Assembly: GCA_963576735.1 (NCBI GenBank) | Contig: OY755197.1 | Span: 12,501 to 76,500 of the forward strand | Direction of reading: 5' to 3' | DNA from: Bedellia somnulentella | Taxonomy: Eukaryota > Arthropoda > Insecta > Lepidoptera > Bedelliidae | DNA length: 64,000 bases | Part shown: one piece after another, positions 2,326 through 21,000 of the stretch | How the letters are laid out: each line of letters starts with the position of its first letter | Numbering within the stretch: position 1 is the stretch's first letter | Position numbers and translations under genes: made by a program | Notes under the pieces: model-generated | What the model was told of the DNA's origin: nothing | The model's database searches: none | What the model saw: the letters and a program-made list of their open reading frames with translations, nothing else

Positions 2326-2739
2326 TTTTTTTTTTTTTTTTTTTTTTCGTGGGGAAATCCTCATGGATCCGACGCCACCCGGTGGAGTGACGAAGGTATG
2401 TCGGACTCCTACCGACTAAAACCCCACGGTGACTCTTCACTGGTGCCTTATTGTAAGGTCCGTGGGCTTTCTAGACCATTGGCAATACGTACCACAGACC
2501 CTACGCACCTGACGCCGCAAGGCATCACTACTCAGGGGGACTTTTGTTAACCCCTTTTCTTTCTGTCTCTTTGCAGCAGACGCTCAGAGTCACTTGAGCG
2601 CCTGCCCGTCGCGGGCAGGTTGAGTCGACACACAAAGCCACCGATTTGCGTGCCACCTGCCTTTGGAGCCCCGTCTTCGGCGGTGAACGCTCACGGGGCT
2701 CCTTGGTCTTGATTAAGACCATTCAATGCCGCGGGCATA
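2326..2739 (-). promoter_or_regulatory. E1 3' UTR with closed terminal stem and poly(A)
   Basis: Poly(A) occupies 2326-2347. Directly inside it, CGTGGGG (2348-2354) can pair with CCCCACG (2422-2428), and within this lies a smaller hairpin GTCGG/CCGAC (2400-2404 with 2412-2416). The same architecture occurs at the 3' ends of E2 and E4 with compensatory changes. A 3' UTR stem-loop is known to matter for SART1 retrotransposition, so this is probably the reverse transcriptase recognition structure. The rest of the UTR up to the ORF2 stop shows no other feature I can name. Confidence 0.6.
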
Positions 2740-5700
2740 CTAGTGTCTTGCACCGCGGCGGCGGGTCCCACGTCTTGTAGGATCCGCTATCTCCCTTTCT
2801 CTTTCGGCGGCCTCTTTCGCAAGCATTACATGTTCACAGAAAGAGGCCACCGCCGCCCACGCTTCGGGGCTCTCCACCATGGCGGCCACTACGGCCGGCA
2901 GGGATAGATCCGGGCCAATGCTAGCCCGGAGTGCTGCCCTCTCCCCAGCCCAAGCTGGGCACTCTTCGAGAGTGTGTTTCGCCGAATCTTCGGGGCAATT
3001 CAGACAGTGGTGGCAACGAGCAGCCTGCTCTTTGCCCAGCCGCCACAGGTACTTACCGAAGCAACCATGCCCGGAAAGGACCTGTGTCAGCCGGAAGCTC
3101 AGAGATCCATGCTCTCGCTGCAACCACTGCGTGAAGACGGGGAGAATGGCCTCCACCGTCTTGTGCCCCGCGCTCGGCTGTCCCAGCCTGAGCGCCCATG
3201 CCTCGAGGGCAGCAGCCTCGACCTCCTGCTTGTAGGCCGCAGTTTCCCGTTGCGTGGGCCAGTGGCCCTGCGTCCGCCGATCTTCACGCCAGTGGAAAGT
3301 GGACGCGAGGACTTTCGCGTCCAAATCCCATGGCATGGAACCCGCCATTAGGCAGGCAGCCTCTCGGGATACCGTTCGGTATCCCCTTGACGCCCTGATG
3401 GACATGAGGCGCTGCGGCGCATGAAGAAGCGCCGCATTAGCCCCGTTCAGGGCGTCCGCCCAAACTGGGGAGCCGTACATTGCCATTGATCGTACGACCC
3501 CCATATAGAGCTGCCTGCTTGCGTTCCTGGGGCCCCCAAGGTTCGGCATGAGTCTGCTGAGAGCAGCAGCCGCAACCATTAACCGGGGCCCCAAACGCTC
3601 GAAGTGAGCGCGGAACGTCCAACGGCCGTCGAGCACTAATCCCAGGTATTTCAAAGTGGACTCGACGGCAATCCTCACGCCACCCACGACGATGGCGGAT
3701 TCCCCCACTGGCGGACGATTCCGAGGCCCATGAAACCACATGGCCTCGGACTTATTCAGGGCCACTTCAAGGCCCAGAAGCCTTATGCGGCGCACAACGT
3801 GCGCCACTCCCGCTGTTGCGCGGATGGCGGCCTCCCTGTATGTTTTCCCTCGAGCCGTCACTAGGGTGTCGTCTGCATAGCAGGTGAGTTGGACACCCCA
3901 GAGGTTGGCGCCGCGCAGAACCCAATCGTAGCCGATGTTCCACAGGAGCGGCCCTAAGACTGACCCCTGTGGCACACCGCATGACATAGCGCGGCTTTCC
4001 CACCCCTCCCGAACCGGGTAAGTGATAGAACGGTCCGAGAGGTACGACTCGAGGACCCTCAGTATATATGGAGGCACTACATGGTATTTGAGTGCCTCTT
4101 TGATACAGGGCCAGGGCATGGTATTAAAGGCGTTGGCGATGTCCAGTGACACCGCCAAAACCACCTCGCCCTGTGCGACCGCCTCATCCGCTATTGCGCG
4201 AACGCGCAACACCGCGTGTACCGTTGAACGGCATCGGCGGAATCCAAACTGCTGGTCCGATATGTTTGGACCTATTTCATCGAGGTGCTCGACGATTCGG
4301 GCAGATATCACCCTCTCAAAAAGTTTGCCCGCCTCGTCGAGCAGGACGATAGGCCGAAACGACGATGGTTCGACGGAGTCAGCGGGGCGCCCTTCCTTTC
4401 GTAGGAGGACGAGTTTGCCCACCTTCCAAGGCTCTGGGAATACCCCTTGTGTCAGGCACATGGAAAGCAGGCCCCGGAACCTCTCCTCCAGGAAGGGTTC
4501 CAACGCAATCACCCAGGCTCGCCCCGGGATACCATCTAGTCCCGGAGCCGTCTTCTTTGCTTTGAGCCGTTTGATCGCCACCGCCAACTCCGGTTCAGTC
4601 ACTTCAGGGACCAGCAGTTCTTCCTCCGCGGGCTGCCGCTCCGCAGCCATCACCGGGGGCATGTGTGCTGCTCTTGCCGGAAACAAGGCCGAGACCACAT
4701 CTTCCACCACGTGGGGCTGGAGACTCGTCGTCAGAGGGGGCGCCCAAGGGCGAAGCTGTTGCCGCACCACTTTGTACGGCCTGCCCCATGGGTCGTTGTT
4801 CAGAGTCTCCAGCGATTCCACCTTGGAGGCGATTTTGGCCCTGAGAACTGCAATCTTCAGGGCTTTTTTCGCCTCACGGTACCTGTTTACTACATCTTGT
4901 TCCTCGGCCTCGATCCGGCGTCGCCTTCTTCTATATCTTTTACACCGGCGGCCCACCTCCATACTAGCTCGTCGGAGTTGAGCTATTTCGGCGGACCACC
5001 AGTGTACTTGTTTCCTCGGAGCCATCGGTCCCGCCCGGGGCATGGACGCGTCGCAGATCTCTGTGAGGGCCTCACAAAACCAGTCCACCTCGGCACTGAT
5101 GTCGTTTGCCGTATCAGACGGCGCTGACCAGGACTGGACAATGGCTGCTTCAGCCATAATTTCTTGGTCCAGCCTGCTGAGGGCCCATTTTGGTCCCCCA
5201 TTCGCCGACAAGCCGCCTGATGAGGTGGCTGCACGTGACGCGGAGACCTCGAACCGGATATAGCGGTGATCCGAGTATGTCTCCACGTCAGTGATGACCC
5301 TCCAGCCCTTGATTAGGGCCCAGAGACCGGGAGTTGCGAAAGTCAGATCGACGATCGAACTCCCGTTATGCCGCACGCATGTGGGTGTCGAACCTATATT
5401 GGCAACAGTTAGCCCGGCAGCTGTCGCCCACTCGACTACAGCCCCGCCGAAAAGTTCAGTCGCCGGAGACCCCCAAGCCACAGATTTGGCGTTGAAATCC
5501 CCGGCCACTAGCACCTGGCGGGGGCGTCGTTGTAGGGCTGCTGCTTCCAGCTCTTGCAAGAAGACCTCGAAATTCGCGAAGGAATCGTTGGGGGAGAAGT
5601 AAATTGAGATGACTACTATCTCCCCGATCCGCGCCGCAACGAAACCCCTGCCGCGAGATACTTCCTCCAGCAGCAGCCCTGACGACCGGCTCACGGTTAT

Positions 5701-5865
5701 TGCCGCCACGCCATTCAGGTCCGACACCCAATTTACCCCAGTTGGGACAAAATATGGCTCCGAGACCACTCCAATGTTTATTAACCACTCCGCCATGCTT
5801 TGAAAGAACAGGTCTTGAGCAGTGGCGCAGTGGTTAAGATTCGCCTGGAGGAACCGTAGGGCCAT
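2740..5865 (-). CDS. E1 ORF2: endonuclease / reverse transcriptase
   Basis: This 1041-residue polyprotein carries out target-primed reverse transcription into telomere repeats. An APE-type endonuclease fills the first ~220 residues: NLNH at 9-12, SEPY at 35-38, GDFN at 122-125 and SDH at 198-200. A basic linker (~300-350) leads into the reverse transcriptase (~430-800), with GVPQGSVLGP near 630 and the catalytic YADD at 663-666. A cysteine/histidine finger typical of the R1 clade (CHHC...H...C) lies near the C terminus, followed by a basic tail. The ATG overlaps an in-frame TAA as TAATG just after the ORF1 stop, so translation is probably by reinitiation. All catalytic motifs are present and there is no internal stop. 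Confidence 0.95.
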   Translation of the reverse strand: MALRFLQANLNHCATAQDLFFQSMAEWLINIGVVSEPYFVPTGVNWVSDLNGVAAITVSRSSGLLLEEVSRGRGFVAARIGEIVVISIYFSPNDSFANFEVFLQELEAAALQRRPRQVLVAGDFNAKSVAWGSPATELFGGAVVEWATAAGLTVANIGSTPTCVRHNGSSIVDLTFATPGLWALIKGWRVITDVETYSDHRYIRFEVSASRAATSSGGLSANGGPKWALSRLDQEIMAEAAIVQSWSAPSDTANDISAEVDWFCEALTEICDASMPRAGPMAPRKQVHWWSAEIAQLRRASMEVGRRCKRYRRRRRRIEAEEQDVVNRYREAKKALKIAVLRAKIASKVESLETLNNDPWGRPYKVVRQQLRPWAPPLTTSLQPHVVEDVVSALFPARAAHMPPVMAAERQPAEEELLVPEVTEPELAVAIKRLKAKKTAPGLDGIPGRAWVIALEPFLEERFRGLLSMCLTQGVFPEPWKVGKLVLLRKEGRPADSVEPSSFRPIVLLDEAGKLFERVISARIVEHLDEIGPNISDQQFGFRRCRSTVHAVLRVRAIADEAVAQGEVVLAVSLDIANAFNTMPWPCIKEALKYHVVPPYILRVLESYLSDRSITYPVREGWESRAMSCGVPQGSVLGPLLWNIGYDWVLRGANLWGVQLTCYADDTLVTARGKTYREAAIRATAGVAHVVRRIRLLGLEVALNKSEAMWFHGPRNRPPVGESAIVVGGVRIAVESTLKYLGLVLDGRWTFRAHFERLGPRLMVAAAALSRLMPNLGGPRNASRQLYMGVVRSMAMYGSPVWADALNGANAALLHAPQRLMSIRASRGYRTVSREAACLMAGSMPWDLDAKVLASTFHWREDRRTQGHWPTQRETAAYKQEVEAAALEAWALRLGQPSAGHKTVEAILPVFTQWLQREHGSLSFRLTQVLSGHGCFGKYLWRLGKEQAARCHHCLNCPEDSAKHTLEECPAWAGERAALRASIGPDLSLPAVVAAMVESPEAWAAVASFCEHVMLAKEAAEREREIADPTRRGTRRRGARH

Positions 5866-5867
5866 TA

Positions 5868-7982
5868 TTAATTAATTACCATGGGTTCCTCCTCGGGCCT
5901 TGGATTAACCATGCCCTTCAATCCGATGCCGGCCTTTCCAATTTTAGGCCGCTTCTTTTTGCTTGCAGAACAAGACTTAGCCCCAACAACATGCTCTGCC
6001 GGTTTGTTAGCTATTTTGCAAACTGGGCAACTTGGCTTTGAACCGCATTCGCTCACTTTATGACCGGGCAAGCCACAGCGAAAGCAAAGGTTGCTGCGAT
6101 CAATGTCAGAAGTGCACTGGGCACGCACATGGCCGGGTTCAAGGCACTTGTAGCAACGCATCTCCCTCTTTGGGAGATGTTTGACCCGCGCTTCACCCCA
6201 ACCGACTTGAAGTTTCTTCAACTGGAGAAGTTTCTTTGCCGTAACAAGGGCACACCTCACGTGCACAGAACAATCACCTCTTAGTCCTTCGTTGATTTGG
6301 CCCACTTTTACGTCAGCTACCGAGCAGCTACCAGCACTAGCAACAGCAACAGCGACTTCTTCTTTAGTCACGGAGTCATCCAGGCCTAAGAGGCGAATAT
6401 CCTCCATTTTTGTTGGTCTGTAGACCTTGACAAGATCAGACTCGAAACACTCTTTAAGTTTGGAAGCCAGTACATCCGCTTTTTCAGAAGAACCTTCTCC
6501 GATTACTTCAAGCTTTTTAGCACCCGTGACTGCGGTTCTGATCCGCACGGGCCCGATTCCTAGGCCTGAAAGATTGAGCTTCTGTCTAGCTTCCGTCATA
6601 ACCTTTTTATAGGTTACGCCACTCTCTGAGGCTGTCTCGTCAATGTGAATTATCACAGCAGCTGACCGTGGCACCCGCAGTTTTTTGGCCGCTTTGGTTG
6701 CATTATTTGATGCAGTCGCTTTGGCCGGTGCTTTGGTGCTCGATGGCCCCTTTTTTCCTCGGCGCACCACCGTTGCCCATGAATCCTCTGCAGAGGGTTT
6801 AGATGGACCAGGTGTTGGCTGTGACACTGGTAAAAGAGGCTCTGGGACACGAACAACTGGGGTAGCGCTACTTTTGCCCTTGCCTTTGCCTTTATTCGTC
6901 GCTTTCGAGCCTTTTGACGCAGAAGCGGTAGTCGAATGTGACGTAGTCACTGCGTTAATAGGATTCAGTGCTCTGTCTGCAGCCAGAGGAGGTCTTAGAC
7001 GTTTCTCTGGTAAGAGACGACCTTCCAATGCTTCCAGTCTGGCATTCATCATGGTCCCTACTTGGACCATGATAGACCGAGCCAGATCATCAGTCGTTGG
7101 TACAGATGGGTTAGAATTAGACCGAGCGATGGTGAATTCAGCCCTCATCTCAGCCATTTCTCTCCTCATTACGTCCAGCTGACCGGCTAGGCTTTCCCTG
7201 TCCGCTTTTATGCGCAGGTTTTCTTCTTGAAGTCGTGTTAACTCTTCTTGTAGTTTCCTCACTTCATTAGAAGAAGAACATTCCTTCAGAAGCTCAGAGT
7301 TAGCCACTATATCTTCTGCCGCGTTCTTCAAGTCCCTGACGTAGGTACCTTTAAGGTTGCCGGATTTCTTTGCAATTTTAATTATTATTGCGGCCTTATC
7401 CTCCACCGTTTTCGCCAGCTCGGAAGCAGACTTTTTCCCCGCAGGGATTACAGGAGTCTGATCTTTAAATTTCCGAGCAGCATAACGATCTACTCTCGGA
7501 GAAAGATCTTCCTGTTCAGAGGATTCCTGCTGTTTACGCATGAACTGTCGGCGGGCTGCAGCGGCCTCAGCTCTTGCTTTCCCTACGCCAATATACTCTC
7601 CAGTAGTTGGCGGCCTACCTCGGCCCCTCTTTGCCGGAGCTTTACTTAAATGTTCGGATCTTTTCCCGTCATTCCTAGCATTGGTTTCATCATCTGAATC
7701 GGATGAAACCGACTCAGTTCCAGTAAAAGTCCTCTTCCTTTGAGAATCGGTAACAGAAATGGAACCGTCTCTGTCCACCGCCGAGTTGAATGAGCTATCA
7801 CTCATAAACTCAACGGCTGTATCGCTTAACTCAAGGTCATGGATAAGATCGCTATGGTCGTCGGTGTGGCAGTTTTTGCCCCCCCCAGAATACGTGGGGG
7901 CGCCTCCCGCCGAAGCGGAAGGGTGGGATTCCCCCTTTCGGGGACCCACCTGGGTAATTCTATTCAAAAGTGCCTGGTTCAT
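5868..7982 (-). CDS. E1 ORF1: Gag-like nucleic-acid-binding protein with three zinc knuckles
   Basis: This 704-residue protein probably packages the element RNA and directs it to telomeres. The N-terminal ~40 residues are rich in G, S and P and are encoded by a strongly structured RNA segment. A basic RGRGRPP stretch (AT-hook-like) lies near residue 120, and a Glu/Lys/Arg-rich, coiled-coil-prone region lies at ~225-290. Three cysteine knuckles span ~610-672: two CX2CX4HX4C and a third of the longer CX2C...AEH...C form diagnostic for the R1 clade. It ends in tandem TAA TAA, the second overlapping the ORF2 ATG. Confidence 0.92.
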   Translation of the reverse strand: MNQALLNRITQVGPRKGESHPSASAGGAPTYSGGGKNCHTDDHSDLIHDLELSDTAVEFMSDSSFNSAVDRDGSISVTDSQRKRTFTGTESVSSDSDDETNARNDGKRSEHLSKAPAKRGRGRPPTTGEYIGVGKARAEAAAARRQFMRKQQESSEQEDLSPRVDRYAARKFKDQTPVIPAGKKSASELAKTVEDKAAIIIKIAKKSGNLKGTYVRDLKNAAEDIVANSELLKECSSSNEVRKLQEELTRLQEENLRIKADRESLAGQLDVMRREMAEMRAEFTIARSNSNPSVPTTDDLARSIMVQVGTMMNARLEALEGRLLPEKRLRPPLAADRALNPINAVTTSHSTTASASKGSKATNKGKGKGKSSATPVVRVPEPLLPVSQPTPGPSKPSAEDSWATVVRRGKKGPSSTKAPAKATASNNATKAAKKLRVPRSAAVIIHIDETASESGVTYKKVMTEARQKLNLSGLGIGPVRIRTAVTGAKKLEVIGEGSSEKADVLASKLKECFESDLVKVYRPTKMEDIRLLGLDDSVTKEEVAVAVASAGSCSVADVKVGQINEGLRGDCSVHVRCALVTAKKLLQLKKLQVGWGEARVKHLPKREMRCYKCLEPGHVRAQCTSDIDRSNLCFRCGLPGHKVSECGSKPSCPVCKIANKPAEHVVGAKSCSASKKKRPKIGKAGIGLKGMVNPRPEEEPMVIN
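7878..7950 (-). promoter_or_regulatory. Structured RNA cluster inside the 5' end of E1 ORF1
   Basis: Successive stems can form within codons ~10-36 of ORF1. GCCCC/GGGGC closes the loop containing CCCAGAATACG. CCGC/GCGG closes a 4-nt loop (7907-7918). An outer stem GGTGGG/CCCACC (7922-7927 with 7945-7950) encloses TCCCC/GGGGA. The E3 sequence is nearly the same. E4 has different bases that preserve the pairing, which argues for an RNA function in addition to coding. Confidence 0.6.
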
Positions 7983-8387
7983 GTTTGGTTTTGGTAGGCT
8001 TTACCCTCGGCCTACCATCGAGCTATACCCCCCACCCCTGCGCTTGGCACTGGACTCCCTCCAGACATTCATCCCCTCGGCACGCTGACCTTGGGATTGG
8101 GGTAATTTTTTATAGAGGTTTTCTTCCTCGCAGCCCGGGCCTCAGTGGCCTGAGCCCCCGTTCCCACCGAAGTAGGCTTACGGTTTGGCCGGCAGTATCA
8201 TGAAGACACTGCCGCCCCACAAAGACAGAACCTGGCCGATCGGTGCGACACAGACGCCAGGTTCTAACACCCGCCCCAGCCGCCCAATGTGGGCAAACGC
8301 TGGGGCTAAGCCGTGCACATCAGAATGTGCCACGACTTCCCGTCCGCTTACTGCTCGCTCTGGAAGCAGAGGAGAGAAGCGGACTCT
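7983..8387 (-). promoter_or_regulatory. E1 5' UTR, multi-hairpin leader
   Basis: The leader contains several perfect or near-perfect stems: GGTAGG/CCTACC (7993-7998 with 8011-8016), GGCAGT/ACTGCC (8191-8196 with 8208-8213), ACCTGGC/GCCAGGT (8230-8236 with 8256-8262), GCCCCAGC/GCTGGGGC (8273-8280 with 8299-8306) and GTCCGCTT/AAGCGGAC (~8342-8384). All recur in the leaders of E3 and E4. The AT-rich stretch TTTTTTATAGAGG is also shared. No promoter can be pinpointed. Confidence 0.6.
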
Positions 8388-8468
8388 CGGTACATTAGCT
8401 TCACCCCGGACTGGATTGCCCGAGGCTACTGAGCCCCCACGCCACGACAAGGCTGCACCGTGTGGGGG
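8388..8468 (-). ncRNA. HDV-like self-cleaving ribozyme fold at the 5' terminus of E1
   Basis: The first 81 nt fit the nested double pseudoknot of HDV-like ribozymes, element by element. P1 is CCCCCAC/GTGGGGG (8468-8462 with 8440-8434), starting at the very first base. P2 is CGGTGCA/TGTACCG (8460-8454 with 8394-8388, one G-U pair). P3 is GCC/GGC with a 7-nt loop TTGTCGT (8453-8441). P4 is CCTCGGG...TCCGGGG (8425-8419 with 8410-8404). The J4/2 strand ends in CTAA (8398-8395), matching the CNRA pattern that holds the catalytic C. P1.1 is weak (TG/CA possible). HDV-like ribozymes are known at 5' ends of R2 and some other non-LTR elements, where they cut the RNA at the element boundary. Activity is inferred. 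Confidence 0.72.
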
Positions 8469-8477
8469 AACCTAACC
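8469..8477. repeat. Telomere remnant between E1 and E2
   Basis: Nine bases, AACCTAACC, separate the first base of E1 from the poly(A) of E2. This shows that both elements inserted into the same telomere tract at the same phase of the repeat. Confidence 0.9.
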
Positions 8478-8890
8478 TTTTTTTTTTTTTTTTTTTTTCG
8501 TGGGGAAATCCTCATGGATTCCCCGCCGCATGGGGGTGCGACGGGGATATGTCAGACTTCTACTGACTAAAACCCCACGGTGGCCCTTCTTGGTGTATAC
8601 AGTTTGGGGGTCCTTGAAGACTTTAACCAGAGGCAATATTCCTCGGACCCCCAGCACCTAACGCCTTGTGGCGTACCTCAATGGGGGGGTTTTTGGTACC
8701 CCCCTTTTTTACCATCACCAAGCAGCGGACGCTCAGGGCCACCTGAGCGTCCGCCCTTCTCGGGCAGGGTTGAGTAGCGCGCAGATAACCCCACTCTGCG
8801 CGCCTCCTGCCCGTGGAGCCCCACTTTCGGCGACGCACGCCATATGGGGGCTCCGTGGTCTAAGAAGACCCTACCAAAGGCCGCGGTGCA

Positions 8891-11800
8891 TCAAGGGTTC
8901 CTGGCACCGCGGCGACGACGGCCCCTTCTGGTGGGGTCCGCCAACTCCCTCTCTCGTTCGGCGGCCTCCTTTGCAAGCATGACTCGTTCGCAAAAGGAGG
9001 CCGCCGCCGCCCACGCATCGGGTCTCTCCACCATAGCCGCGACCACGGCCGGCAGAGAGAGATCCGGGCCGATGACCGCCCGGAGTGCTGCCCTCTCTTC
9101 ATCCCACGCTGGGCACACTTCTAATGTGTGTTGTGCCGTCTCCTCGGGGCAATTTAGGCAGTGGTGGCAACGAGCAGCCTGCTCCTTGCCCAGCCGCCAC
9201 AGGTACTTCCCGAAGCAACCATGCCCGGAAAGGACCTGTGTAAGCCGAAAGCTCAGAGATCCGTGCTCTCGCTGCAACCACTGCGTAAAGACGGGGAGGA
9301 TCGCCTCCACCGTCCTGTGCCCCGCACTCGGCTGACCCAGCCGCAGTGCCCAGGCCTCCAGGGCAGCTGACTCGACCTCCCGTTTGTAGGCCGCAGTCTC
9401 CCGATCCGTGGGCCAGTGGCCCTGTGTCCGCCGTTCTTCACGCCAGTGGAAGGTCGACGCGAGAACTTGCGCGTCTAACTCCCACGGCTTTGAACCCGCC
9501 ATTAGGCAGGCAGCCTCTCGGGATACCGTGCGGTATCCCCTTGACGCCCTGACAGCCATGAGTCGTTGCGGCGCATGAAGAAGCGCCGCGTTTGACCCTT
9601 TCAGGGCGTCAGCCCACACTGGGGAGCCGTACATAGCCATGGACCGTACGACTCCCATATAGAGCTGCCTGCACCCGTCCCTAGGGCCCCCAAGGTTCGG
9701 CAGGAGTCTGCAGAGTGCAGCTGCCGCAACCATCAACCGGGGCCCCAGACGCTCGAAGTGAGCGCGGAACGTCCAACGGCCGTCGAGTACTAATCCAAGG
9801 TATTTCAAACTTGACTCGACGGCAATCCTCTCGCCACCCACGACGATGGCGGATTCCCCAACCGGCGGACCGTTCCGAGGACCATGGAACCACATGGCCT
9901 CGGACTTATTCAGGGCCACTTCCAGACCCAACGACCTTATTCGACGCACCACGTGCGCCACTCCCGCAGTCCCGCGGATGGCGGCCTCTCTGTAGGTCTT
10001 GCCTCGAGCCGTCACTAGGGTGTCGTCTGCATAGCAGGTGAGTTGGACACCCCAGAGGTTGGCGCCGCGTAAGACCCAGTCGTAGCCGATGTTCCACAGA
10101 AGCGGGCCCAAGACTGAGCCCTGTGGAACACCGCAAGACATTTCGCGGCGACCCCAACCCTCCCGAAGCGGATACGTAATGTACCGGTCCGACAGGTACG
10201 ACCCGAGAATCCTCCTGATGTAGGGAGGCACGTCATGGTACTTCAGTGCCTCCTCAATGCAAGACCAGGGCATGGTGTTAAAGGCGTTTTTAATGTCGAT
10301 CGAGACCGCCAACACCACCTCGCCCTGGGAGACCGCCTCGTCCGCTATTGAGCGGACCCGCAGAACCGCATGAACGGTGGAACGACAGCGCCGGAAACCG
10401 TACTGGTGGTCCGAGAGGTTCGGACCAATTTCCTCGAGGTGATTGACGATGCGGGCCGAAACCACCCGCTCCAAGAGCTTGCCCGCCTCATCAAGCAAGA
10501 CGATTGGGCGGAATGCCGAAGGCTCTATGGAGTCGGCGGGGCGCCCCTCCTTTCTCAACAAGACGAGTTTGCCCGTCTTCCACGGCTCCGGAAATACGCC
10601 TTCCTCCAGGCACGCAGAAAACAGGCCCCGAAATTTCACTTCAAGGAAGGGCTTGAGCGCCACAACCCACGCCTGCCCCGGGATTCCATCTAGACCCGGG
10701 GCTGTTTTCTTAGCTTTAAGGCGCTCGATAGCCACCGCCAACTCTGGCTCCGTCACCTCGGGAACCAGCCGGTCGTCCACCGGACGTTGCCGCTCACATA
10801 TCATCACGGGGGGCTGATGCGCCCCCCTATTCGGGAACAATGCCGAGACGACATTCTCCACCACGTGGGGCTGGAGGCTCGTCGTGAGCGGGGGAGCCCA
10901 GGGGCGAAGTCTTTGCATCGCCACTCTATAAGGGCGCCCCCATGGATCCCTATTAAGAGCCTCCCGGAGTTCTTTCCTTGACTCTTCTTTGGCCCTGATG
11001 ATAGCAATTTTCAGGGCCTTTTTCGCCTCGCGAAATACCTCCACGCGGCGGAGTTCCTCGGCCTCGTCTCGGGGTCTTCTCCTCCTCTGTCTTTTGCACC
11101 GGCGGCGTGCCACGATGCTCGCCTGTCGTAGGCTAGCAATTTCGGCAGACCACCAGTGCACTTGGCGTCTCGGAGCCATAGGCCCCACTCGGGGCATAGA
11201 CGCATCGCAAATCTCTGTGAGAGCCTCACGAAACCAGTCCACCTCAGCACGGATGTCGATTGCTGTACCAGACGGTGCCACCCAGGACTGGACAATAGCT
11301 GCCTCGACCATAACTTCTTTATCCAACCTGCTGAGGGCCCACCTGGGTCCCCCATTTGTCGACTGACCGCCTGGTAAGGTGGCTGCACGGGACGTGGAGA
11401 GGTCGTAACGGATGTATCGGTGATCCGAAAACGACTCCACGTCTGTGATGACTCTCCAGCCCTTGATAAGGGCCCAGAGACCGGGAGTTGCGAAGGTCAG
11501 ATCGACAATCGAACTCCCGTTATGCCGAATGCATGTGGGTGTCGAACCCCTATTTACAATGGCCACACCCGTGGCCGTCGCCCACTCTAGCACGACCTCG
11601 CCAAAACAATTAGTGGCCGGAGATCCCCAAGCCACAGACTTGGCATTGAAGTCTCCGGCGACCAGGACCTGACGAGGAGAGCGTTGCAGGACTGCTGCTT
11701 CTATCTCCTGCATAAACACTTCAAAGTTGGCAAGGGTTTCGTTTGGGGAAAAGTATATAGAAAAAATCACTATTTCCCCGACACGAGCTGAGACGAAACC

Positions 11801-12019
11801 CCTGCCTCTTATCACCTCTTCCAGCAGCAGTCCTGATGACTGGCTGACGGTTATCGCCGCCACGCCATCCAGGTCCGACACCCAGTTTACCCCTGAAGGG
11901 ACAAAGTATGGCTCCGAGACCACTCCTATTTGTATCAACCACTCCGCCATGCTTTGGAAGAACAGAACCTGGGCAGTGGCGCAGTGGTTGAGATTCACTT
12001 GGAGTAACCTCATAGTCAT
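8891..12019 (-). CDS. E2 ORF2: endonuclease / reverse transcriptase
   Basis: This intact ORF of about 1042 residues has the same domain order as E1 ORF2: endonuclease motifs SEPY, GDFN and SDH, reverse transcriptase with GVPQGS and YADD, and a C-terminal CHHC...H...C finger. I place the start at the ATG at 12019-12017, because it overlaps the ORF1 stop as TGATG (TGA at 12021-12019); an extended start would use TTG. With no promoter or ORF1 upstream it is probably not expressed as a normal bicistronic RNA, yet the frame is undamaged. Confidence 0.92.
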   Translation of the reverse strand: MTMRLLQVNLNHCATAQVLFFQSMAEWLIQIGVVSEPYFVPSGVNWVSDLDGVAAITVSQSSGLLLEEVIRGRGFVSARVGEIVIFSIYFSPNETLANFEVFMQEIEAAVLQRSPRQVLVAGDFNAKSVAWGSPATNCFGEVVLEWATATGVAIVNRGSTPTCIRHNGSSIVDLTFATPGLWALIKGWRVITDVESFSDHRYIRYDLSTSRAATLPGGQSTNGGPRWALSRLDKEVMVEAAIVQSWVAPSGTAIDIRAEVDWFREALTEICDASMPRVGPMAPRRQVHWWSAEIASLRQASIVARRRCKRQRRRRPRDEAEELRRVEVFREAKKALKIAIIRAKEESRKELREALNRDPWGRPYRVAMQRLRPWAPPLTTSLQPHVVENVVSALFPNRGAHQPPVMICERQRPVDDRLVPEVTEPELAVAIERLKAKKTAPGLDGIPGQAWVVALKPFLEVKFRGLFSACLEEGVFPEPWKTGKLVLLRKEGRPADSIEPSAFRPIVLLDEAGKLLERVVSARIVNHLEEIGPNLSDHQYGFRRCRSTVHAVLRVRSIADEAVSQGEVVLAVSIDIKNAFNTMPWSCIEEALKYHDVPPYIRRILGSYLSDRYITYPLREGWGRREMSCGVPQGSVLGPLLWNIGYDWVLRGANLWGVQLTCYADDTLVTARGKTYREAAIRGTAGVAHVVRRIRSLGLEVALNKSEAMWFHGPRNGPPVGESAIVVGGERIAVESSLKYLGLVLDGRWTFRAHFERLGPRLMVAAAALCRLLPNLGGPRDGCRQLYMGVVRSMAMYGSPVWADALKGSNAALLHAPQRLMAVRASRGYRTVSREAACLMAGSKPWELDAQVLASTFHWREERRTQGHWPTDRETAAYKREVESAALEAWALRLGQPSAGHRTVEAILPVFTQWLQREHGSLSFRLTQVLSGHGCFGKYLWRLGKEQAARCHHCLNCPEETAQHTLEVCPAWDEERAALRAVIGPDLSLPAVVAAMVERPDAWAAAASFCERVMLAKEAAERERELADPTRRGRRRRGARNP

Positions 12020-12092
12020 CAATTAACGACGGCTACGGGTTCCCCTTCTTCCATTTGCTCCACACTAGTAGTTGCAGGTTGCTGTGTGGACG
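12019..12092 (-). pseudogene. E2 ORF1 remnant (last ~20 codons)
   Basis: Upstream of the E2 ORF2 start, the frame ending in the TGA at 12021-12019 reads as a C-terminal tail ending MEEGEPVAVVN. It resembles the ORF1 ends of E3 (MEQGEPEIISQ) and E1. The frame closes at ~12097, where E3 sequence begins, so the rest of ORF1 has been deleted. Confidence 0.7.
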
Positions 12093-12095
12093 CCT

Positions 12096-14904
12096 ACCAA
12101 AACATCCATGCCCTGTCAGTATCTGCGTAAGCCGGAAGCTGAGAGCTCCGTGTCCCCGCTGCAACCACTGCTCGAAGACGGGGAGAATTGCCTCCACCGT
12201 CCTATGCCCGGCGCTAGGCACAGCAAGCCTTAGCGCCCAAGCCTCGAGGGCGACTGCCTGCACCTCCAAGCGGTAGGCAGCCGTTTCCTTCTGCGTGGGC
12301 CAGTGGCCCTGAGCCCGCCGTTCCTTCCGCCAGTGGAACGTCGACGCGAGGACTTTCGCGTCTAGGTCCCACGGCATCGACCCCGCCATCAGGCAGGCAG
12401 CCTCGCGAGAGACTGTGCGGTAGCCTCTCGACACCCTAGTGGCCATGAGCCTTTGCGGCGCATGAAGCAGCGCCGCGTTTGGCCCATCAAGGGCGCCATA
12501 TCGGGGCGCCGTACATGGCCATCGACCGCACGACCCCCGCATATAGCTGCCTGCAACCTGACCTGGGGCCCCCCAGGTTTGGCAGCAGCTTACAAAGAGC
12601 CGCTGCTGCCACTATCAATCTCGGCCCCAGGCGCTCAAAGTGGGCGCGGAAGGTCCAACGGCCGTCGAGAATTAAACCCAGATAATGTAGCGTTGTCTCG
12701 ACGGCAATCCTCACCCCGCCCACTACTATGGCGGAGTCCACCGGCGGGCGATTCCGAGGCCCATGAAACCACATGGCCTCGGATTTATTCAGGGCCACTT
12801 CTAGGCCCAACAGTTTGATGCGGTGCACCACCTGGGCTACGCCAGCCGTAGCCCGAATGGCGGCCTCGCGAAACGTTTTCCCTCGAGCCGTAACCAGGGT
12901 GTCATCGGCGTAACACACTACCTGGACACCCCAGAGGTTGGCGCCGCGCAGAACCCAATCATACCCGATGTTCCACAGGAGCGGGCCCAAAACAGACCCC
13001 TGCGGAACACCGCACGTAACTTCGCGACGACACCACCCCTCCCGAACCGGATAAGTGATTTGCCGGTTCGAGAGGTACGACCCGAGAATTTCCCTCAAAT
13101 AGGGAGGCACTTGGTGATAGATAAGTGCCTCCCTTATGCACGAATAGGGCAAGGTGTTGAAGGCATTCTTTATGTCCAAAGAGGTTGCCAGCACCACCTC
13201 GCCCTGCGAGACCGCCTCGTCCGCTATATCACGGACGCATTGCACCGCATCGACCGCTGAGCGGCAGCCGCGGAAGCCGAATTGCTGGTCCGATAGGTTC
13301 GGACCAGTCTCCTCCAAATGCCCGACGATGCGGGAGGACACTATCCGCTCTAAGAGCTTTCCCACCTCGTCGAGCAAAACGATGGGCCGGAACGCCGAGG
13401 GCTCAAGTGAGTCGGCGGGGCGCCCCTCCTTGCGCAACAACACCAATTTCCCCGTTCTCCAAGGCTCTGGAAACACTTTTCTCTCCAGGCACAAGGAGAA
13501 CAGATTACACATCCTTTCGGCAAGGAAGGGCTTCAGCGCCACCACCCAGGCCTGCCCCGGGATACCATCCAAGCCCGGAGCCGTCTTTTTTGCCTGGAGG
13601 CGCTTGACGGCCACCGCCAACTCTGGCTCGGTGACCTCCGGCACCACCTCTTCAGCTTCCGCAGCCGCGACATACCCGCCCATGACAGGGGCTGGATGTT
13701 CCTCTCTTGTCGGAAACAAGGCCGAGACCACACTCTCTACAACGTTGGGCTGGAGACTACTCGTTAAGGGGGGTGCCCAGGGGCGAAGCCTCTGCCTCGC
13801 CAACCTATACGGCCGCCCCCATGGATCGTTGTCGAGCGTCTCCAGCAGTTCCTTCTTTGAGGCAATTTTGGCCCTAAATACAGAGTCTTTAAGGGCCCGT
13901 TTTGCCTCTCGTAATATGTCGTAGAGGCGGTTCTCTTCGGCCTCGTTCCGACGCGCACTTCTTCTGTGGCGGGTATACTGGCGCTTTGCCGCAATGCACG
14001 CTACGCGCAACTGCGCGACTTCAGCGTTCCACCAGTACACCCGCCGTCTCGGAGCCATAGGGCCCGCGCGGGGCATCGATGCGTCGCAGATCTCTGTGAG
14101 GGCATCACGAAACCACGTCACCTCGTCGTTTAGGTCGGCAGCCCGTCCTGGACCGGTCAGCCATGACTGAACAATGGCAGCCTCAGTCATGAGCTCCTTG
14201 TCCAGTTTTCCGAGGGCCCATCTTGGTCCCCCATTAAACGACGGACCGCGAGACGGGGCGGTCTGACGGGTCGTGGAGACATCGAATCGGATGTAACGAT
14301 GATCCGAAAATGTCTCCACATCCGTGATTACCCTCCAGCCCTTAATCAGGGCCCAGAGTTCGGGAGTAGCAAAAGTCAGATCGACGATTGAACTCCCGTT
14401 GCGACGCACGCACGTGGGTGTCGATCCTCTGTTGACGACAGCTAGACCTAGAGCCGTCGCCCACTCAACTACAGCGTCGCCGAATGCATTTGCATGTGTC
14501 GCCGGGGAACCCCAAGCAACTGACTTGGCATTAAAATCCCCGGCGATCAGCACCCGACGAGGGCGGCTACGGAGAACCACTGCTTCCACATCGCTCAGCA
14601 AGACTTCGAGGTCAGCAAGCGGACGGTTGGGGGAGAAGTATAAGGAGATTGTGACTTCCTCCCCCACTAACGCCGCAACAAATCCGTGACCTCGAGTCAC
14701 ATCCCTGAGCTGCAAGCCAGCAGCCCCCGAGATGACAATAGCCGCCACGCCGTCTAAGTCCGACACCCAATTGTCCCTTGCAGGGACAAAGTATGGCTCC
14801 GAGACTAATCCAACCTTAATTGACCACTGCGCCATACTCTGTAGAAAGAGATCCTGAGCGCAGGCACAGTGATTTATATTCGCCTGTAGGAATCTCATTG
14901 CCAT
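12096..14904 (-). pseudogene. E3 ORF2 (frameshifted, C-terminally truncated)
   Basis: An intact endonuclease and reverse transcriptase region (14904 to ~12490, ~800 codons, with SEPY, GDFN, SDH and YADD) is followed by a frameshift at about 12497. Compared with E1, about five bases are missing after the MYGAPIW codons. The second frame (12542-12033) continues the conserved C-terminal region until HGCFG, then runs into E2 sequence and loses the zinc finger. The start ATG (14904-14902) overlaps the ORF1 stop as TAATG. Confidence 0.88.
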
Positions 14905-17147
14905 TATTGGCTAATGATTTCGGGCTCCCCCTGTTCCATCGGCTCGTTGATTTGAGTCAACGAGCGTGCAGGCTTGCCTTTGGGCTTCACAGAACCAGTT
15001 CCATTTTTCTTGTTTGGCCGCTTACAAGATTTGGCGCCGATACGATGATCGGCCGGTTTCTTGTCAGCGGCGCACAGAGGGCAATGAGGTTTCTCCCCAC
15101 AGTCCCTTGCCTTGTGGCCACCATTACCGCAGCGATAACAAAGATCGCTGCGGTCTTCACTAGACGGGCAGGTAGCTCTGACGTGCCCTACCTCCAAGCA
15201 TTGGAAGCATCTTAACTCCTGACGGGGCAAGATCTTGACTCGGGCTAAGCTCCAGCCTATTTGTATTTCCCCCACTTTGCTCATCAATTTAAGCGTGTTT
15301 AGGGGGCAGCGAACCCAAACGGATCCAAGGCCCCTGGGTCCATCTCTGACCTCCCCAATTTTAATATTTTCAGGAGAACAGTTCCCTGTCGCCGCGATCG
15401 CTGATATGATCTCCTGAGGCGAAACCGTATCATCCAGTTTAGTCAGTCGGAGTTCTCCGACTTTAACTGGCCTGTTTACCTTCGCCTCAGGTGGTAGAAT
15501 TTCTCGTAATCTAGCAGCCAATATATCTGCCTTAGCTGCTGAGTCTGCCCCTGGGAGTTCTATCAATCTAGCTCCCGTAACCGCTTTTCGCATTCGCAGG
15601 GACCCGATTCCCATGCCACGTAGATCTAGTTTTTGGCGAGCTTCATACATCACTTCACCAAGATTTAGTCCTTTTTCTGATGCACCATTTTCTAACGAGA
15701 TGGTCACGGCCGCTGATCCAGGAACGCGGATTCTAGGAGCAGCTTGCTTTGGTTTGCCCTTCATTTTGACCTGGTTATTAGCCGGGGCAGGAGCTGGTAA
15801 TGATTTTTTACCCCTTTTTACAACCGTGGACCATGTTTCAGTTTCTTGAGCTGTAGATGGTCCTCCTGTCTCTTTGCTGGGTGACGAACCTAGATGGGGT
15901 AAAGCCATTTGAGGCGCGACATTACAAGCAGCGTTTGGCCCTGGTCTAGGTTGAACCAGTTTGCCAGAATTGGCAGCCGTCTTCTTGCCTTTACCTTTTC
16001 CCTTGTTTTTGACCAATTGGGGACCTGGAAGAGGTAAATTTGCTGGCTGTTTGTTCCTTTCAGTTCTGCTGCTTTGAGCTTTATTGTCAGCAGCTAACGG
16101 AGGACGTATACGCTTTTCGGGTAGCAAGCGTTCCTCTAGCGCTTCCAATCTAGCGTTCATCATGGTCCCAACTTGGACCATAATAGAGCGCGTCAAGTCT
16201 TCCGTTATAACTACCGGGCTTGAAGTTGAGCGGTTATTCGTGATTTCCGCTCGGATCTCCGCCAAATCATTGCGAAGGCTAACCAATTCCGCAGCCAAAG
16301 ACTCTTTATCTGTTTTGAGTCTTTGGTTTTCCTCCTTCTGGCGCGCCAACTCTTCCTGAAGTTTGATTACTTCGCTTGACGAAGAGCATTCCTTCAAGAG
16401 TTGAGAGTGCTGTCTTATGTCCTCGGCAGTTTTCTTTAGGGCCCTTACATAATCTCCCTTAAGGTTGCCAGACTTTTTGGCGACGTTTATAATAAGAGCC
16501 ACTCCCTCTTCAACTTCTTGAGCCAGCAAGGTAGCTGTCTTCTTCTCATCGGGAATTGATGAATCCCTTTTAAGAGCGAGGGCATTTTCCCTCCTTTCCT
16601 TTCTAGCAAAATATCTATCGATTTTTTGGGATAGATCTTCTTGCTCAGAAGTTCTCTGCTCGTCCCGCAAGAATTTTTGGCGAGCTGCAGCAGCCTCCGC
16701 TCTTGCTCTTCCAATGCCAATGTACTCACCCGTGGAAGGTGGTCTACCACGGCCTCTTTTTGGTGCATTGGTTTTGCCAGTCGCAGCAGCATCAGCGCTA
16801 GTGTCTGAGTCGGAAGTACTCAGGCCGCTTCCAGCTCGTCGTTTTCTCTGGAGCTCCAACAAGGAGTTGGTGCTTTCCAAAGACATGCGAGAGCACGGTC
16901 TCTCAACGTCGTCACTTTCCGTCTCTGATAGGCGTTTGCCTTGGTCTTGTTTTCCATACGCTAGTTCGATATCCGTTATAACATTGCAGTGGTCGTTTTG
17001 ACGCGGGCCCTTAGAAGAAGGACCTGCGAGGCAGTTTTTGCCCCCCCCAGAATACGTGGGGGCGCCTCCCGCAGAAGCGGAAGGGTGGGATTCCCCCTTT
17101 CGGGGACCCACCTGGGTAATTCTCTTCAAAATTGCCGTTTTATCCAT
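14904..17147 (-). CDS. E3 ORF1: Gag-like zinc-knuckle protein
   Basis: This intact 747-residue ORF1 protein is homologous to E1 ORF1, with a nearly identical N-terminal GPRKGESHPSASAGG segment, an AT-hook-like RGRGRPP stretch, a charged coiled-coil-prone middle and three C-terminal knuckles (CFQC, CYRC and CPLC...ADHRIGAKSC). The stop is the TAA of TAATG. The middle third diverges much more than the ends. In this damaged element the protein could only act in trans. Confidence 0.9.
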   Translation of the reverse strand: MDKTAILKRITQVGPRKGESHPSASAGGAPTYSGGGKNCLAGPSSKGPRQNDHCNVITDIELAYGKQDQGKRLSETESDDVERPCSRMSLESTNSLLELQRKRRAGSGLSTSDSDTSADAAATGKTNAPKRGRGRPPSTGEYIGIGRARAEAAAARQKFLRDEQRTSEQEDLSQKIDRYFARKERRENALALKRDSSIPDEKKTATLLAQEVEEGVALIINVAKKSGNLKGDYVRALKKTAEDIRQHSQLLKECSSSSEVIKLQEELARQKEENQRLKTDKESLAAELVSLRNDLAEIRAEITNNRSTSSPVVITEDLTRSIMVQVGTMMNARLEALEERLLPEKRIRPPLAADNKAQSSRTERNKQPANLPLPGPQLVKNKGKGKGKKTAANSGKLVQPRPGPNAACNVAPQMALPHLGSSPSKETGGPSTAQETETWSTVVKRGKKSLPAPAPANNQVKMKGKPKQAAPRIRVPGSAAVTISLENGASEKGLNLGEVMYEARQKLDLRGMGIGSLRMRKAVTGARLIELPGADSAAKADILAARLREILPPEAKVNRPVKVGELRLTKLDDTVSPQEIISAIAATGNCSPENIKIGEVRDGPRGLGSVWVRCPLNTLKLMSKVGEIQIGWSLARVKILPRQELRCFQCLEVGHVRATCPSSEDRSDLCYRCGNGGHKARDCGEKPHCPLCAADKKPADHRIGAKSCKRPNKKNGTGSVKPKGKPARSLTQINEPMEQGEPEIISQ

Positions 17148-17588
17148 TTTAGGTTGTTGGTAGGCTTTACCCTCGGCCTACCATCGAGCTGCGCTCGGCA
17201 CTGGACTCCCTCCAGACATTCATCCCCTCGGCACGCTGACCTTGGGATTGGGGTAATTTTTTATAGAGGTTTTCTTCCTCGCAGCCCAGACCTCAGTGGC
17301 CTGAGCCCCCGTTCCCACCGAAGTAGACTTACGGTTTGGCCGGCAGTATCATGGAGACACTGCCGCCCCACAAAGACAGAACCTGGCCGATCGGTGCGAC
17401 ACAGACGCCAGGTTCTAACACCCGCCCCAGCCGCCCAATGTGGACAAACGCTGGGGCTAAGCCGTGCACATCAGAATGTGCCACGACTTCCCATCCGCTT
17501 ACTGCTCACTCTGAAAGCAGAGGAGAGGAACGGACTCTCGGTACATTGGCTTCACCCCGGGCTGGGTTGCCCGAGGCTACTGAGCCCC
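17148..17588 (-). promoter_or_regulatory. E3 5' leader, missing the ribozyme 5' half
   Basis: The leader is nearly identical to that of E1 over its whole length, including the GGCAGT, ACCTGGC, GCCCCAGC and GTCCGC hairpins. The 3' half of the ribozyme (P1 3' strand, P4 with CCTCGGG/CCCGGGG and the P2 3' strand) is present, but the first ~33 nt are absent, so the HDV-like fold cannot form. Confidence 0.7.
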
Positions 17589-17622
17589 CTAACCTAACCT
17601 AACCTAACCTAACCTAACCTAA

Positions 17623-17624: not shown

Positions 17625-17654
<30 letters not shown>

Positions 17655-18036
17655 CGAGGGGGAAATCTTCAGAAAGATACCTTGCCGCATGGGGTTTACA
17701 GCAGGGTTATGTGGGATTCTTACCCACTAAAACCCCCTCGGTAGCCGGCCTCAGCGCATGCAGGAGTCATCGGGATCTCACTGAACACACCAATGACCCC
17801 CTTGCGCGTCACCTAGTAGGGTACTTCCCGTGGAATTTCCATTATTACCGCTTGCCTAGCGGTTGAGCAATATTCGGCTACAGAATATTACCCACTGCCC
17901 TGGGTCACTTTGTAGAATTAGGTCCCCTTCCTTAGTTCTGTGATCCTGTTTGTTCCTTGTTAGGCGCCTCTTACACCAAGTGGGAAAGACTGTAGGCTTA
18001 TTCTTAAACCCAGCTCTACAGGGTACAGTGAGGGTA
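17625..18036 (-). promoter_or_regulatory. E4 3' UTR with closed terminal stem
   Basis: Next to the 30-nt poly(A), CGAGGGGG (17655-17662) pairs with CCCCCTCG (17733-17740), and GTGGG (17711-17715) pairs with CCCAC (17723-17727). Relative to E1, the T-A pair of the outer stem has become A-T and the inner stem has changed on both sides. The linker CTAAAA is conserved. The remaining UTR shows nothing recognisable. Confidence 0.6.
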
Positions 18037-21000
18037 TCAAGGACGGACATTACCACCGCCCCTGCGTCGTCGTTGCCTTCGAGTGGGATCAGCCCTCTCC
18101 CAATCCCGCTCATTTGCCTCTTTCTTGAGCATTACTGCTTCACAAAAAGAGACAACGGCGCTCCAATTTTCTCGACAAGCCAGCATAGCTTCGACTAATG
18201 CCGGTGGAGAAAGGTCATGCCCAATTTTTTGAGTAAGGTTGCTCCTCTCGTTTGCCCATGCTGGACAATCCTCCAGAGTATGTTGGGCGGAATCTATGGT
18301 TCCGTCACAGTGGTGACATTTAGCTGTTTCTTCACGTCCTATTCTGTGAAGGTACTCACCGAAACAGCCATGTCCAGTGAGCACCTGGGTAAGCCTATAG
18401 GTGACGCTACCACCGCCTCGATCCAACCAAGTGGTAAGACTTGGCAGAATTGCACTGACCGTGCGACGCCTCATTGATAGTGGTTCTTCTAACCTTTCCT
18501 GCCATGAGTCAATAGCTTGTCGACGCATTTGCTGCCGCAATCCTTCCATTTCTCTCCCAGTAGGGTTACCAACTGAAGAACGCAGTTCCTTGTACACATT
18601 TGCATCAACGTTTGCAAGTATATCAAAGGGAGGCATTCGTGCCAAGAGAGTTGCCGCGTCAAAGGACAAGGTTCGGTATCCTCGAGCAACCCGTATAGCT
18701 ATTTGGCGCTGAGCACTATTCAACTTCATTCGGTTTTGACGAGTAAGTTTATCAGACCACACTGGTGCCGCGTAGAGGGCTATGGATCGGATAACCCCTG
18801 CATAAAGTCGCCGAACTTCCTCCCTTGGGCCTCCAAGATTCGGTAATAGTCTGTGCATGGCACCAGATACTTTTTGAATCCGTGGAAGCAGTTTCTCGAA
18901 GTGTTCGGTAAATTTCCAACGGCTATCTATTAGGACTCCAAGGTATTTCATACAGTGGCCTACCTCTACATTTGCATCTCCGACTCTGATTGAGTAATTA
19001 GGAGGTTCCTGATTACTGGGAAGATTGTGAAACCAGATAGCTTCCGTTTTGTGAGGAGCCACTTTCAGCCCAATGCTTTCAATTTTGGAAACAACTCGAG
19101 CAACACTCAGTTCTGTAAGTCGGGCAGCCCTCTGAAAATTTTCGGCTTCAACTAATACAAGTGTGTCGTCGGCATAACAAACCAATTTTGAGCCTGATGG
19201 CAAGTTACTACGTAAGACGGTATCATAGGCGAGGTTCCACAATAGTGGACCAAGCACTGACCCTTGAGGAACACCACATTCTACTGCCTCAGTGTAAGAA
19301 TCTCCACTACGACCAACATAGGTTATAGATCTATTGCTCAGGTATGTATTCACAATATTTTGCAGGTACAAGGGCACGTTATGATAGATAAGTGCCTCTC
19401 GTATTGCTTCCCAGGGGAGCGTATTAAAAGCATTAATAATATCTAGGCTCACAGCCAACATTACGTTTCCCTCGGAGACTGTTTGTTCCGAAAGGAAGCG
19501 GACGCGGAGTATTGCATCCACGGTTGACCTTCCCTTTCGGAACCCAAATTGGGAATCCGATAAGTTGGGGCCAGTTACAGATAAATGCTCTGTAATACGA
19601 TCGCCAATGATCCGTTCAAAAAGCTTACCAGCCTCATCAAGTAGACAGATGGGTCGGTATGCCGAAGGAGATGATGTGACCCTACCTTCTTTATGTAGCA
19701 GAACAAGTTTTGCCTTTTTCCAGATCAAAGGAAATACTCCAAGGCGGAGGCAGCTAGTAAACAGTCGCTTCAGACGGTCTCCAAGGATGCTAAGAGCCAA
19801 TACCCAGGCACGGCCTGGAATCCCATCAGGACCTGGAGCAGTGTTTTTTGCTGCCAAGCGTTTAACGGACCAATTGAGTTCCTCCGTCGATATGTCCAAT
19901 TCGTCCGTCCATAAAGGCTGGTCCAGTTGGTCAATGACGGGGGAAGGGTTTGCATTGGCACGTGGAAACAAAGTATCCACTATTTGTACCGTAAAATCTG
20001 GTTCTAAGGTCTCTGTAAGTGGGGGTACCCACGGACGCAGTTTCCCCATTACCATCTTATACGGGCGTCCCCATGGATCTCTGTCCAGTTTTTCCAGAAG
20101 TTCCTTCCAGGCGTTGGCTTTAGCGTTCGCTATGGCGATTTGGAACGCCACTGTTGCCTCTCTGTACGAAGCATAAGCTATGGCCTTTTCTTCGGGAGTA
20201 GCTCGCCGCCTTCTACGGGCTCTCGTATACTGGCGTCTGCTAGACCAGCACACATTGCGAAGATGCGTAATTTCGTCCGTCCACCAATATTCTTTTTTGC
20301 GCTTCACAGGTTTACTCCGAGGCATTGAGCTATCACAAATATCGGTCATGGTGTCTCGGAACCAGATGGCCGTATTTTCAGGGTTCGCTTCTTCTAGCTC
20401 TTCAGCCCAGTCTGCAACGTTGGCAGCGGCTATCAGGAGATCCCGATTAAGCTGCTTGAGGGACCATCGTTGTGGCAGGTTATTTTGTGGCCGGACTCCA
20501 CCCGTGTGTGACTGAACTTTTACAACCATCTCGATATATTGGTGATCGGATAGTGTAACTTCACCATCCGCAACTCTCCACCCTGTTACAATTCGTGAAG
20601 CTGACGGACTTGCCCACGTCAAATCGACAATAGACTCGCCTTGCCATCGGATGCACGTCGGTACAGATCCTTGGTTTAAAAGTCCGAGGTTGAATTCCGA
20701 AGTCCATCCTAGAAGGGTGTCACTTTTCGGCTCACTCATGGTGTCCCCCCATATATGTGAACGAGCGTTGAAGTCGCCAAGAACCAAAATAAAGTTTGAA
20801 GTAATGCTTCGAACGCCCATCGATAACCCGTCCAAGTACCTTTCGTACTCGGCAAGGGTACAATTGGGTGATACATAGCAGCCAACTATTGCAAAATGAC
20901 CCCATGATACAGCAACCCATCCGTGTCCTTTTGTTAGGAGAGACATTGGTAAATTGTTAGAAATGCTACTCCAATATACAGCAACCAAGCCCGCACTGTC

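Follow-up and report, generated by a model that had tools for sequence, protein, structure and literature searches.

A candidate HDV-like self-cleaving ribozyme at the exact 5' end of SART-type telomeric retrotransposons

The intact telomeric retrotransposons analysed here most probably start with an HDV-like self-cleaving ribozyme, which would release SART RNA that is co-transcribed with telomere repeats or within a tandem array. The first 81 nt of the element E1 fit the HDV order P1-P2-P3-L3-P1'-P4-J4/2-P2'. The fold starts at the first base of the element, so that the two boundaries coincide, and its core is conserved.

The window, meaning the whole 64,000-nt stretch of DNA that was analysed (C29:12501-76500), lies within a 549-Mb insect genome. 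The contig stretch preceding it consists of telomere repeat and N, which places the window at a chromosome end. It opens with 2.3 kb of (CCTAA)n, behind which lie the non-LTR elements E1 to E4, every one on the minus strand. PF14529 and PF00078 are found in ORF2 of these elements, and those with an ORF1 show a CCHC knuckle in it. The elements and their parts are listed below, a slash in junction sequences marking the element boundary.

2348 to 8468, minus strand: E1, full-length SART-type element (poly(A) at 2326-2347; 5' junction GGTT/CCCCC)
2740 to 5871, minus strand: ORF2 of E1, endonuclease (PF14529) and reverse transcriptase (PF00078)
5868 to 8000, minus strand: ORF1 of E1, with a CCHC zinc knuckle
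8469 to 8498, minus strand: upstream context of E1, with the E2 poly(A), then GGTTAGGTT, then E1, in a head-to-tail array
17539 to 17589, minus strand: E3 remnant with an incomplete ribozyme (50.2 bits; the element starts inside P1')
17625 to 17654, minus strand: 3'-end poly(A) of E4
17655 to 23687, minus strand: E4, a second SART-type lineage, its ORF2 48% identical to that of E1

The minus-strand junctions read GGTT/element/(A)n/GG, and the insertion site is therefore TT^AGG in the TTAGG sense. This is the specificity described for SART elements, TRAS elements having the opposite one (PMC7265360). As judged from their sequences, E1 and E4 are SART-type elements by insertion specificity, ORF1, an ORF2 with endonuclease and reverse transcriptase, and the poly(A) tail. 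TRAS membership was rejected, as these elements run in the TTAGG sense and a TRAS element would need the CCTAA sense. The named protein matches of the reverse transcriptase are mostly Lepidoptera reverse transcriptases, and the best protein match of the elements, from Plutella xylostella, is 60% identical, which makes a lepidopteran host probable. A pattern search for relatives of E1 ORF2 in viral and prokaryote contigs returned 4 and 16 stretches, respectively, none of which encodes a relative. The 5' end of E3 lies near 17587, cut off within P1', leaving no complete ribozyme. E2, the 3' part of an element, adjoins E3 near 12009-12095 with no telomere repeats between them (window 8499-17589); the two look like a composite or rearranged pair. 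The window also holds a tandem array of a 145-bp unit at 43654-44452 (5.5 copies at 95%).

A DNA search of the genome gave 898 candidate copies, the best 40 of which were scored; as these 40 were the ones that match an intact 5' end best, they are uninformative on the frequency of 5'-truncated or damaged copies. We fetched 38 of them, the other two being E1 itself and a copy on C8 (in L019). Model R1 was built from the E1 ribozyme. The parts of the proposed fold are as follows.

8388 to 8468, minus strand: candidate HDV-like ribozyme of E1 (nt 1 is 8468 and nt 81 is 8388)
23606 to 23687, minus strand: candidate HDV-like ribozyme of E4 (P2 with one bulged G)
8462 to 8468, minus strand: P1 5' strand CCCCCAC (nt 1-7, pairing with nt 29-35; proposed cleavage before 8468)
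8434 to 8440, minus strand: P1 3' strand GUGGGGG
8454 to 8460, minus strand: P2 5' strand (nt 9-15, pairing with nt 75-81)
8388 to 8394, minus strand: P2 3' strand UGUACCG
8441 to 8453, minus strand: P3 (3 bp) and L3 (nt 16-18 pairing with nt 26-28; 7-nt loop UUGUCGU)
8404 to 8425, minus strand: P4 hairpin (nt 44-50 pairing with nt 59-65)
8395 to 8403, minus strand: J4/2, ending in GCUAA (proposed catalytic C at 8398, nt 71)
8438 to 8441, minus strand: CGTG, a possible overlapping DPE core-promoter motif (+28 to +31)

The initial annotation had described P1 (7 bp), P2 (7 bp), P3 (3 bp with a 7-nt loop), P4 (7 bp) and a J4/2 strand ending in CTAA in E1 and E4, and all of these are present. Its finer observations, a P4 pair that is G-U in E1 and G-C in E3 and a P2 of E4 that keeps pairing around a bulge (one bulged G), were confirmed in the sequence. 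P1 is paired and invariant in all seven alignment rows and in 38 of 38 further copies, and in E1 a single unpaired A separates the 5' strands of P1 and P2. The loop L3, with a U and a UCG as in R2 and HDV, is UUGUCGU in every fetched copy (38/38) and in 7/7 rows of alignment A2. Positions 70-74 in J4/2 read GC[U/C]AA with the same constancy (36 copies with UAA and 2 with CAA; 7/7 rows of A2). Together with the E1 and E4 cores, which are identical at 73 of 74 positions (nt 1-74), the invariance of P1, L3 and GC[U/C]AA in the 38 copies supports the ribozyme reading. Two features of the core are counted against it. The first pair is C1-G35 in 38/38 fetched copies and 7/7 rows of A2, with no G at nt 1; HDV-like ribozymes usually carry a G at this position, which is not strictly defining. 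P1.1 consists of one Watson-Crick pair, G21-C36, beside U20.G37 in E4 and U20.U37 in E1 and all 38 fetched copies, and this putative pairing is weak. The CUAA of J4/2 (8395-8398) could pair with UUAG in the telomere repeats directly preceding the element (8469-8477), so flanking telomere RNA might compete with ribozyme folding.

A descriptor of the fold that requires an HDV-type L3, scanned over both strands, matches the window only at 8388-8468 and 23607-23687, the 5' ends of E1 and E4, and this bears out the fold that had been proposed for them. It matched twice in 100 Markov shuffles of the whole window. When any L3 was allowed, a third match appeared in the window at 41899-41986 and 25 shuffles gave 17 matches, which makes this form weak over the whole window. 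The first 100 nt were also subjected to 3,421,025 dinucleotide shuffles; anchored at nt 1, the HDV-type-L3 form fitted none of these and the any-L3 form fitted 13. These chance figures are somewhat flattering, because the descriptor was composed with the sequence in view. The restriction of matches to the two intact 5' ends and the 0/3,421,025 count support the ribozyme reading. A chance fold was rejected on the descriptor scan with HDV-type L3 and on the same anchored shuffles. Stability gives no support, the nested fold being not unusual for its composition (z -0.99).

At the gathering cut-offs, no Rfam family matches within the window. In an E-value search the best of 4227 families for E1 was RF02682 (HDV-F-prausnitzii), aligned over its whole model to exactly 8388-8468 (15.4 bits, cut-off 44, E 0.75). 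The leading families for E4 were RF00094 (14.9 bits, cut-off 50, E 4.2) and RF02682 (12.7 bits, E 3.2). That HDV models lead the 4227 families for both elements supports the ribozyme reading; the low scores, about one third of the cut-offs or below, are counted against it. Two of three further copies matched RF02682, and the third, in L066, had no HDV match at E up to 5.

The helices are kept among copies. Over 7 distinct rows, pairing holds in 97.6% of 168 cells against 39.5-50.9% for slid partners, a control that favours a structure derived from the very same sequences. P1 and P3 are invariant over the seven rows; the invariance of P1 is more than a ribozyme alone demands and is counted against it. 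The P2 pair at columns 13-78 is A-U, G-U or G-C in these rows, and 21 of the 38 fetched copies have G-U at the variable P2 pair, the other 17 having A-U. Broken pairs occur and are counted against the ribozyme: the outermost P2 pair is broken in three of seven rows and in 1/38 fetched copies, one P4 pair is broken in the variant copy C1a, and one P4 base is altered in L074 (1/38). Only one of the 24 pairs changes on both sides in the seven distinct rows, and the covariation is no better than after shuffling of the columns, 371 of 500 shuffles attaining the same score. The copies are too alike for covariation to serve as proof, and the helices are compatible with, and unproven by, covariation; its thinness is likewise counted against the ribozyme.

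Conservation at the 5' end reaches well beyond the fold. Between E1 and E4, ORF2 proteins are 48% identical with 25% identity at 268 four-fold sites, which is saturation, and ORF1 is 36% identical, yet in the remainder of the 5' UTR 83% of 375 aligned positions are identical. The whole 5' UTR of the six elements compared is 82-97% identical over aligned positions. The likeness between E1 and E4 would reflect either strong constraint or exchange between lineages, exchange seeming the likelier, and the ribozyme-bearing 5' UTR may be an exchangeable cassette common to lineages whose proteins are 48% identical. Since the rest of the 5' UTR is conserved too, conservation is neither special to the ribozyme nor proof of it, a point counted against the ribozyme reading. 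UTR-wide conservation would also suit a structured 5' end that does not cleave and serves the RNP or second-strand step, as a binding site or as homology finishing the insertion, and the short 5' duplications described below show that the terminus takes part in joining during template jumps. Binding, however, does not predict the joint occurrence of the HDV order, the UCG of L3 and the C-N-A-A of J4/2, and we regard such a non-cleaving role as highly improbable.

The 5' junctions show where the elements begin. Among the 38 fetched copies, 32 have the exact junction GGTT/CCCCC, 3 have 9-11 C, and 3 have the first 8-12 nt duplicated. An extra G was found at the junction in 0/38 copies, a weak sign of an uncapped end. 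Upstream poly(A) lies at most 60 nt away in 31 of the 38. A pattern joining telomere repeat and ribozyme core gave 996 matches in the genome, in which a single site may count several times, against 5 for the reversed control. The first 100 matches listed were collapsed by hand to 53 sites, some of which overlap the fetched copies. Among the matches listed, 41 of the 53 sites have telomeric or array surroundings (27 joined exactly, 7 with a T or C added or missing, 6 with part of the 5' end duplicated and 1 other) and 12 lie inside chromosomes. The core string CAGCCTTGTCGTGG is found in 52 of the 53 listed sites, half its letters having been demanded by the pattern itself. In prokaryote and viral contigs a telomere-junction pattern returned 7 and 3 stretches, respectively, and in 0 of these 10 does a P1-P3-L3 core lie close to the match.

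Partial 5' duplications stand at the junctions in L053, L054 and L072 and, in the genome scan (G000), at C5:20221250-20260634 and C1:111325-111381, where a P4'-J4/2 fragment stands before nt 1 at C1:111325. They look like template jumps of the reverse transcriptase from an RNA ending at nt 1. Base 9 of the duplicated piece in L054 is a T, as in C1c, a copy of another subfamily, as if two RNAs of different subfamilies, both ending at nt 1, had been joined end to start. Such ends would arise just as well from transcription that starts at nt 1, and the junctions therefore inform us where the RNA ends and not how it was made.

Ribozyme cores inside chromosomes were noted (G000) at C1:6154098, C2:14969015, C2:16970081, C2:16970904, C3:6127666, C5:784786, C5:8391524, C7:3240471, C7:8192234, C7:14462125, C7:16469826 and C8:6306694. 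The script classed C2:14969015 as having an extra T or C, yet it shows a duplication. Several of these cores follow a GGTTATGTATAAAACGAG-like sequence cut at differing points, and the set perhaps represents a dispersed ribozyme-bearing family. An array of SART 5' ends on the minus strand at G000 C5:20221250-20260634, some 0.73 Mb short of the right end of the contig, has the look of a telomere array that is interstitial and inverted.

Variant copies bear on the extent of the module. C1c retains nt 1-82 at 95%; 17 nt then replace nt 83-200 (118 nt), after which the common UTR resumes, so its kept block stops one base beyond P2'. C1a is a 631-nt copy (L011:1467-2097, minus strand) with a poly(A) and no ORF of 300 codons. 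It retains about 130 nt of the ribozyme 5' end and the SART 3' end, and the sole similarity of its middle to these elements is one 27-nt match; it resembles a non-autonomous telomeric element of the SIDE type. The 32 exact junctions, the absence of an extra G, the mixed-subfamily duplication in L054, the module edge in C1c and the retention of the 5' end in C1a support the ribozyme reading. Two copies are counted against it. One on C2 (L035:4075-4108) has the exact GGTT/CCCCC junction, P3 and 6 of 7 P1 pairs and lacks P4, J4/2 and P2', which may have been lost by later deletion. The other, C1x, is a 10.5-kb TT^AGG insert (L011:8442 to L012:9004) whose ORF2 is 58% identical to that of E4. A 5-kb stretch precedes the first long ORF of C1x, and its 5' end is of another kind; no 7-bp P1 partner was found in its first 1.1 kb. 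Its 5' part may be foreign to the element.

The same 5' ends could be set by RNA polymerase II starting at nt 1 from an internal, DPE-bearing promoter, the HDV-like fold being incidental or decayed. In Bombyx, the core promoter of SART1 contains a DPE, CGTG, at about +28 to +32, and TRAS1 has the variant CGTT (PMC4748587), and here CGTG occupies +28 to +31 in all 38 fetched copies. P1 and L3 are conserved in sequence beyond the need of pairing, and the L035 copy keeps nt 1-34 without the remaining ribozyme. A promoter acting alone leaves unexplained the HDV fit, the GC[U/C]AA at nt 70-74 and the C1c edge at nt 82. Capped RNA might moreover leave an extra G, which none of the 38 junctions has (a weak argument), and the CGTG strings are themselves the L3/P3' and P3'/P1' segments of the ribozyme. 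We consider this explanation unlikely. Compatible with the ribozyme reading is a dual element in which a promoter overlaps the ribozyme, as in Pr77 of L1Tc, which is described as both promoter and ribozyme (PMC4035085). A CGTG DPE lies within the 77 nt of Pr77 (PMC4748587) and CGTG overlaps the core here too, with sequence conservation that exceeds the need of pairing alone; the CGTG in L3/P3', on the other hand, already belongs to the HDV-like core. A dual element is a real possibility, if not the expected one, and an overlapping internal promoter may act besides the ribozyme. The initial annotation had proposed that a ribozyme at the exact element boundary releases the element from a read-through UUAGG transcript, giving a promoter-independent 5' end. 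Release at the boundary remains the best-supported reading of the sequences; promoter independence is questionable, in view of the SART1 DPE (PMC4748587) and the CGTG in 38/38 copies.

For the ribozyme reading we infer co-transcription, cleavage and the catalytic role of C71. RNA polymerase already at work on a telomeric or upstream-element transcript of UUAGG sense would run on into the element, and the nascent RNA would take up the double pseudoknot of P1-P4. Cytosine 71, in J4/2, would then help to break the bond before nt 1; the element RNA left by this cut would have a precise 5'-OH end and would serve target-primed insertion at TT^AGG. The upstream poly(A) within 60 nt of 31/38 fetched copies would also fit a role as unit cutter in head-to-tail SART arrays, one read-through transcript being cleaved at every element start. 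Each cut would then also give the upstream element RNA a defined 3' end, ...poly(A)-(GGUUA)n-GGUU, and base pairing of this tail with the CCTAA strand at the target would be possible. We hold this extension to be rather doubtful.

The 5' end is a strong candidate for an HDV-like ribozyme, placed at the boundary of telomeric insertions that probably number in the hundreds in this one genome, and offers a direct handle on how telomere-repeat retrotransposons obtain their RNA. A 5'-OH versus a cap at nt 1 offers a clean contrast between the co-transcript and the internal-promoter view of SART transcription. If true, arrays punctuated by ribozymes and a non-autonomous telomeric element with a ribozyme would carry over to telomeres what is known of R2.

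Ribozymes of this kind reportedly figure in the abstract of Ruminski et al. 2011, which is said to describe HDV-like ribozymes in telomere-specific SART; the SART elements of that study were reportedly from Tribolium. In the passage of PMC11620745 that lists retrotransposons with 5' HDV-like ribozymes, telomere-specific SART is named, citing Ruminski et al. 2011, and the element class, the 5' position and the ribozyme family are the same as here. As our elements have SART specificity and SART ribozymes have already been credited (PMC11620745), the suggestion that such a ribozyme was new for TRAS/SART elements fails. On sequence grounds, the E1 and E4 5' ends are well supported as a further example of SART HDV-like ribozymes and are no new invention.

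Among the Rfam models, HDV-F-prausnitzii (RF02682) and the HDV ribozyme (RF00094) align over their full length to the first 81-85 nt of the elements, with only 12.7-15.6 bits against cut-offs of 44 and 50. The R2 ribozyme is similar in standing at the 5' end of a site-specific non-LTR element and in its release from a host co-transcript (PMC3774820), as proposed here. The L3 of our elements, U-UG-UCG-U, with P3 comes near the R2 motif CCUCCUCGUGG (PMC5035012), and pairing of an L3 G with an L3 U has been described for the R2 ribozyme (PMC3774820). The two differ in P1.1 and in the place of cleavage: in R2 the commonest cut lies 28 nt upstream, in rDNA (PMC3774820), whereas here P1 and the element share their first base and P1 contains no base of the telomere. 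Pr77 of L1Tc/ingi, with L1TcRz, is alike in having about 80 nt at the exact 5' end, an HDV-like fold and a CGTG inside (PMC4035085, PMC4748587). Promoter and ribozyme activity have been reported for Pr77, whereas ours is a candidate from sequence, and host and target are unrelated. SIDEs consist of the R2 ribozyme joined to R2 or R1 3' ends (PMC3414825). C1a is like them in combining a ribozyme end with an element 3' end and in having no ORF of 300 codons, and unlike them in that it would depend on telomeric SART machinery rather than rDNA and has a middle that hardly resembles these elements, as seen in the one copy examined.
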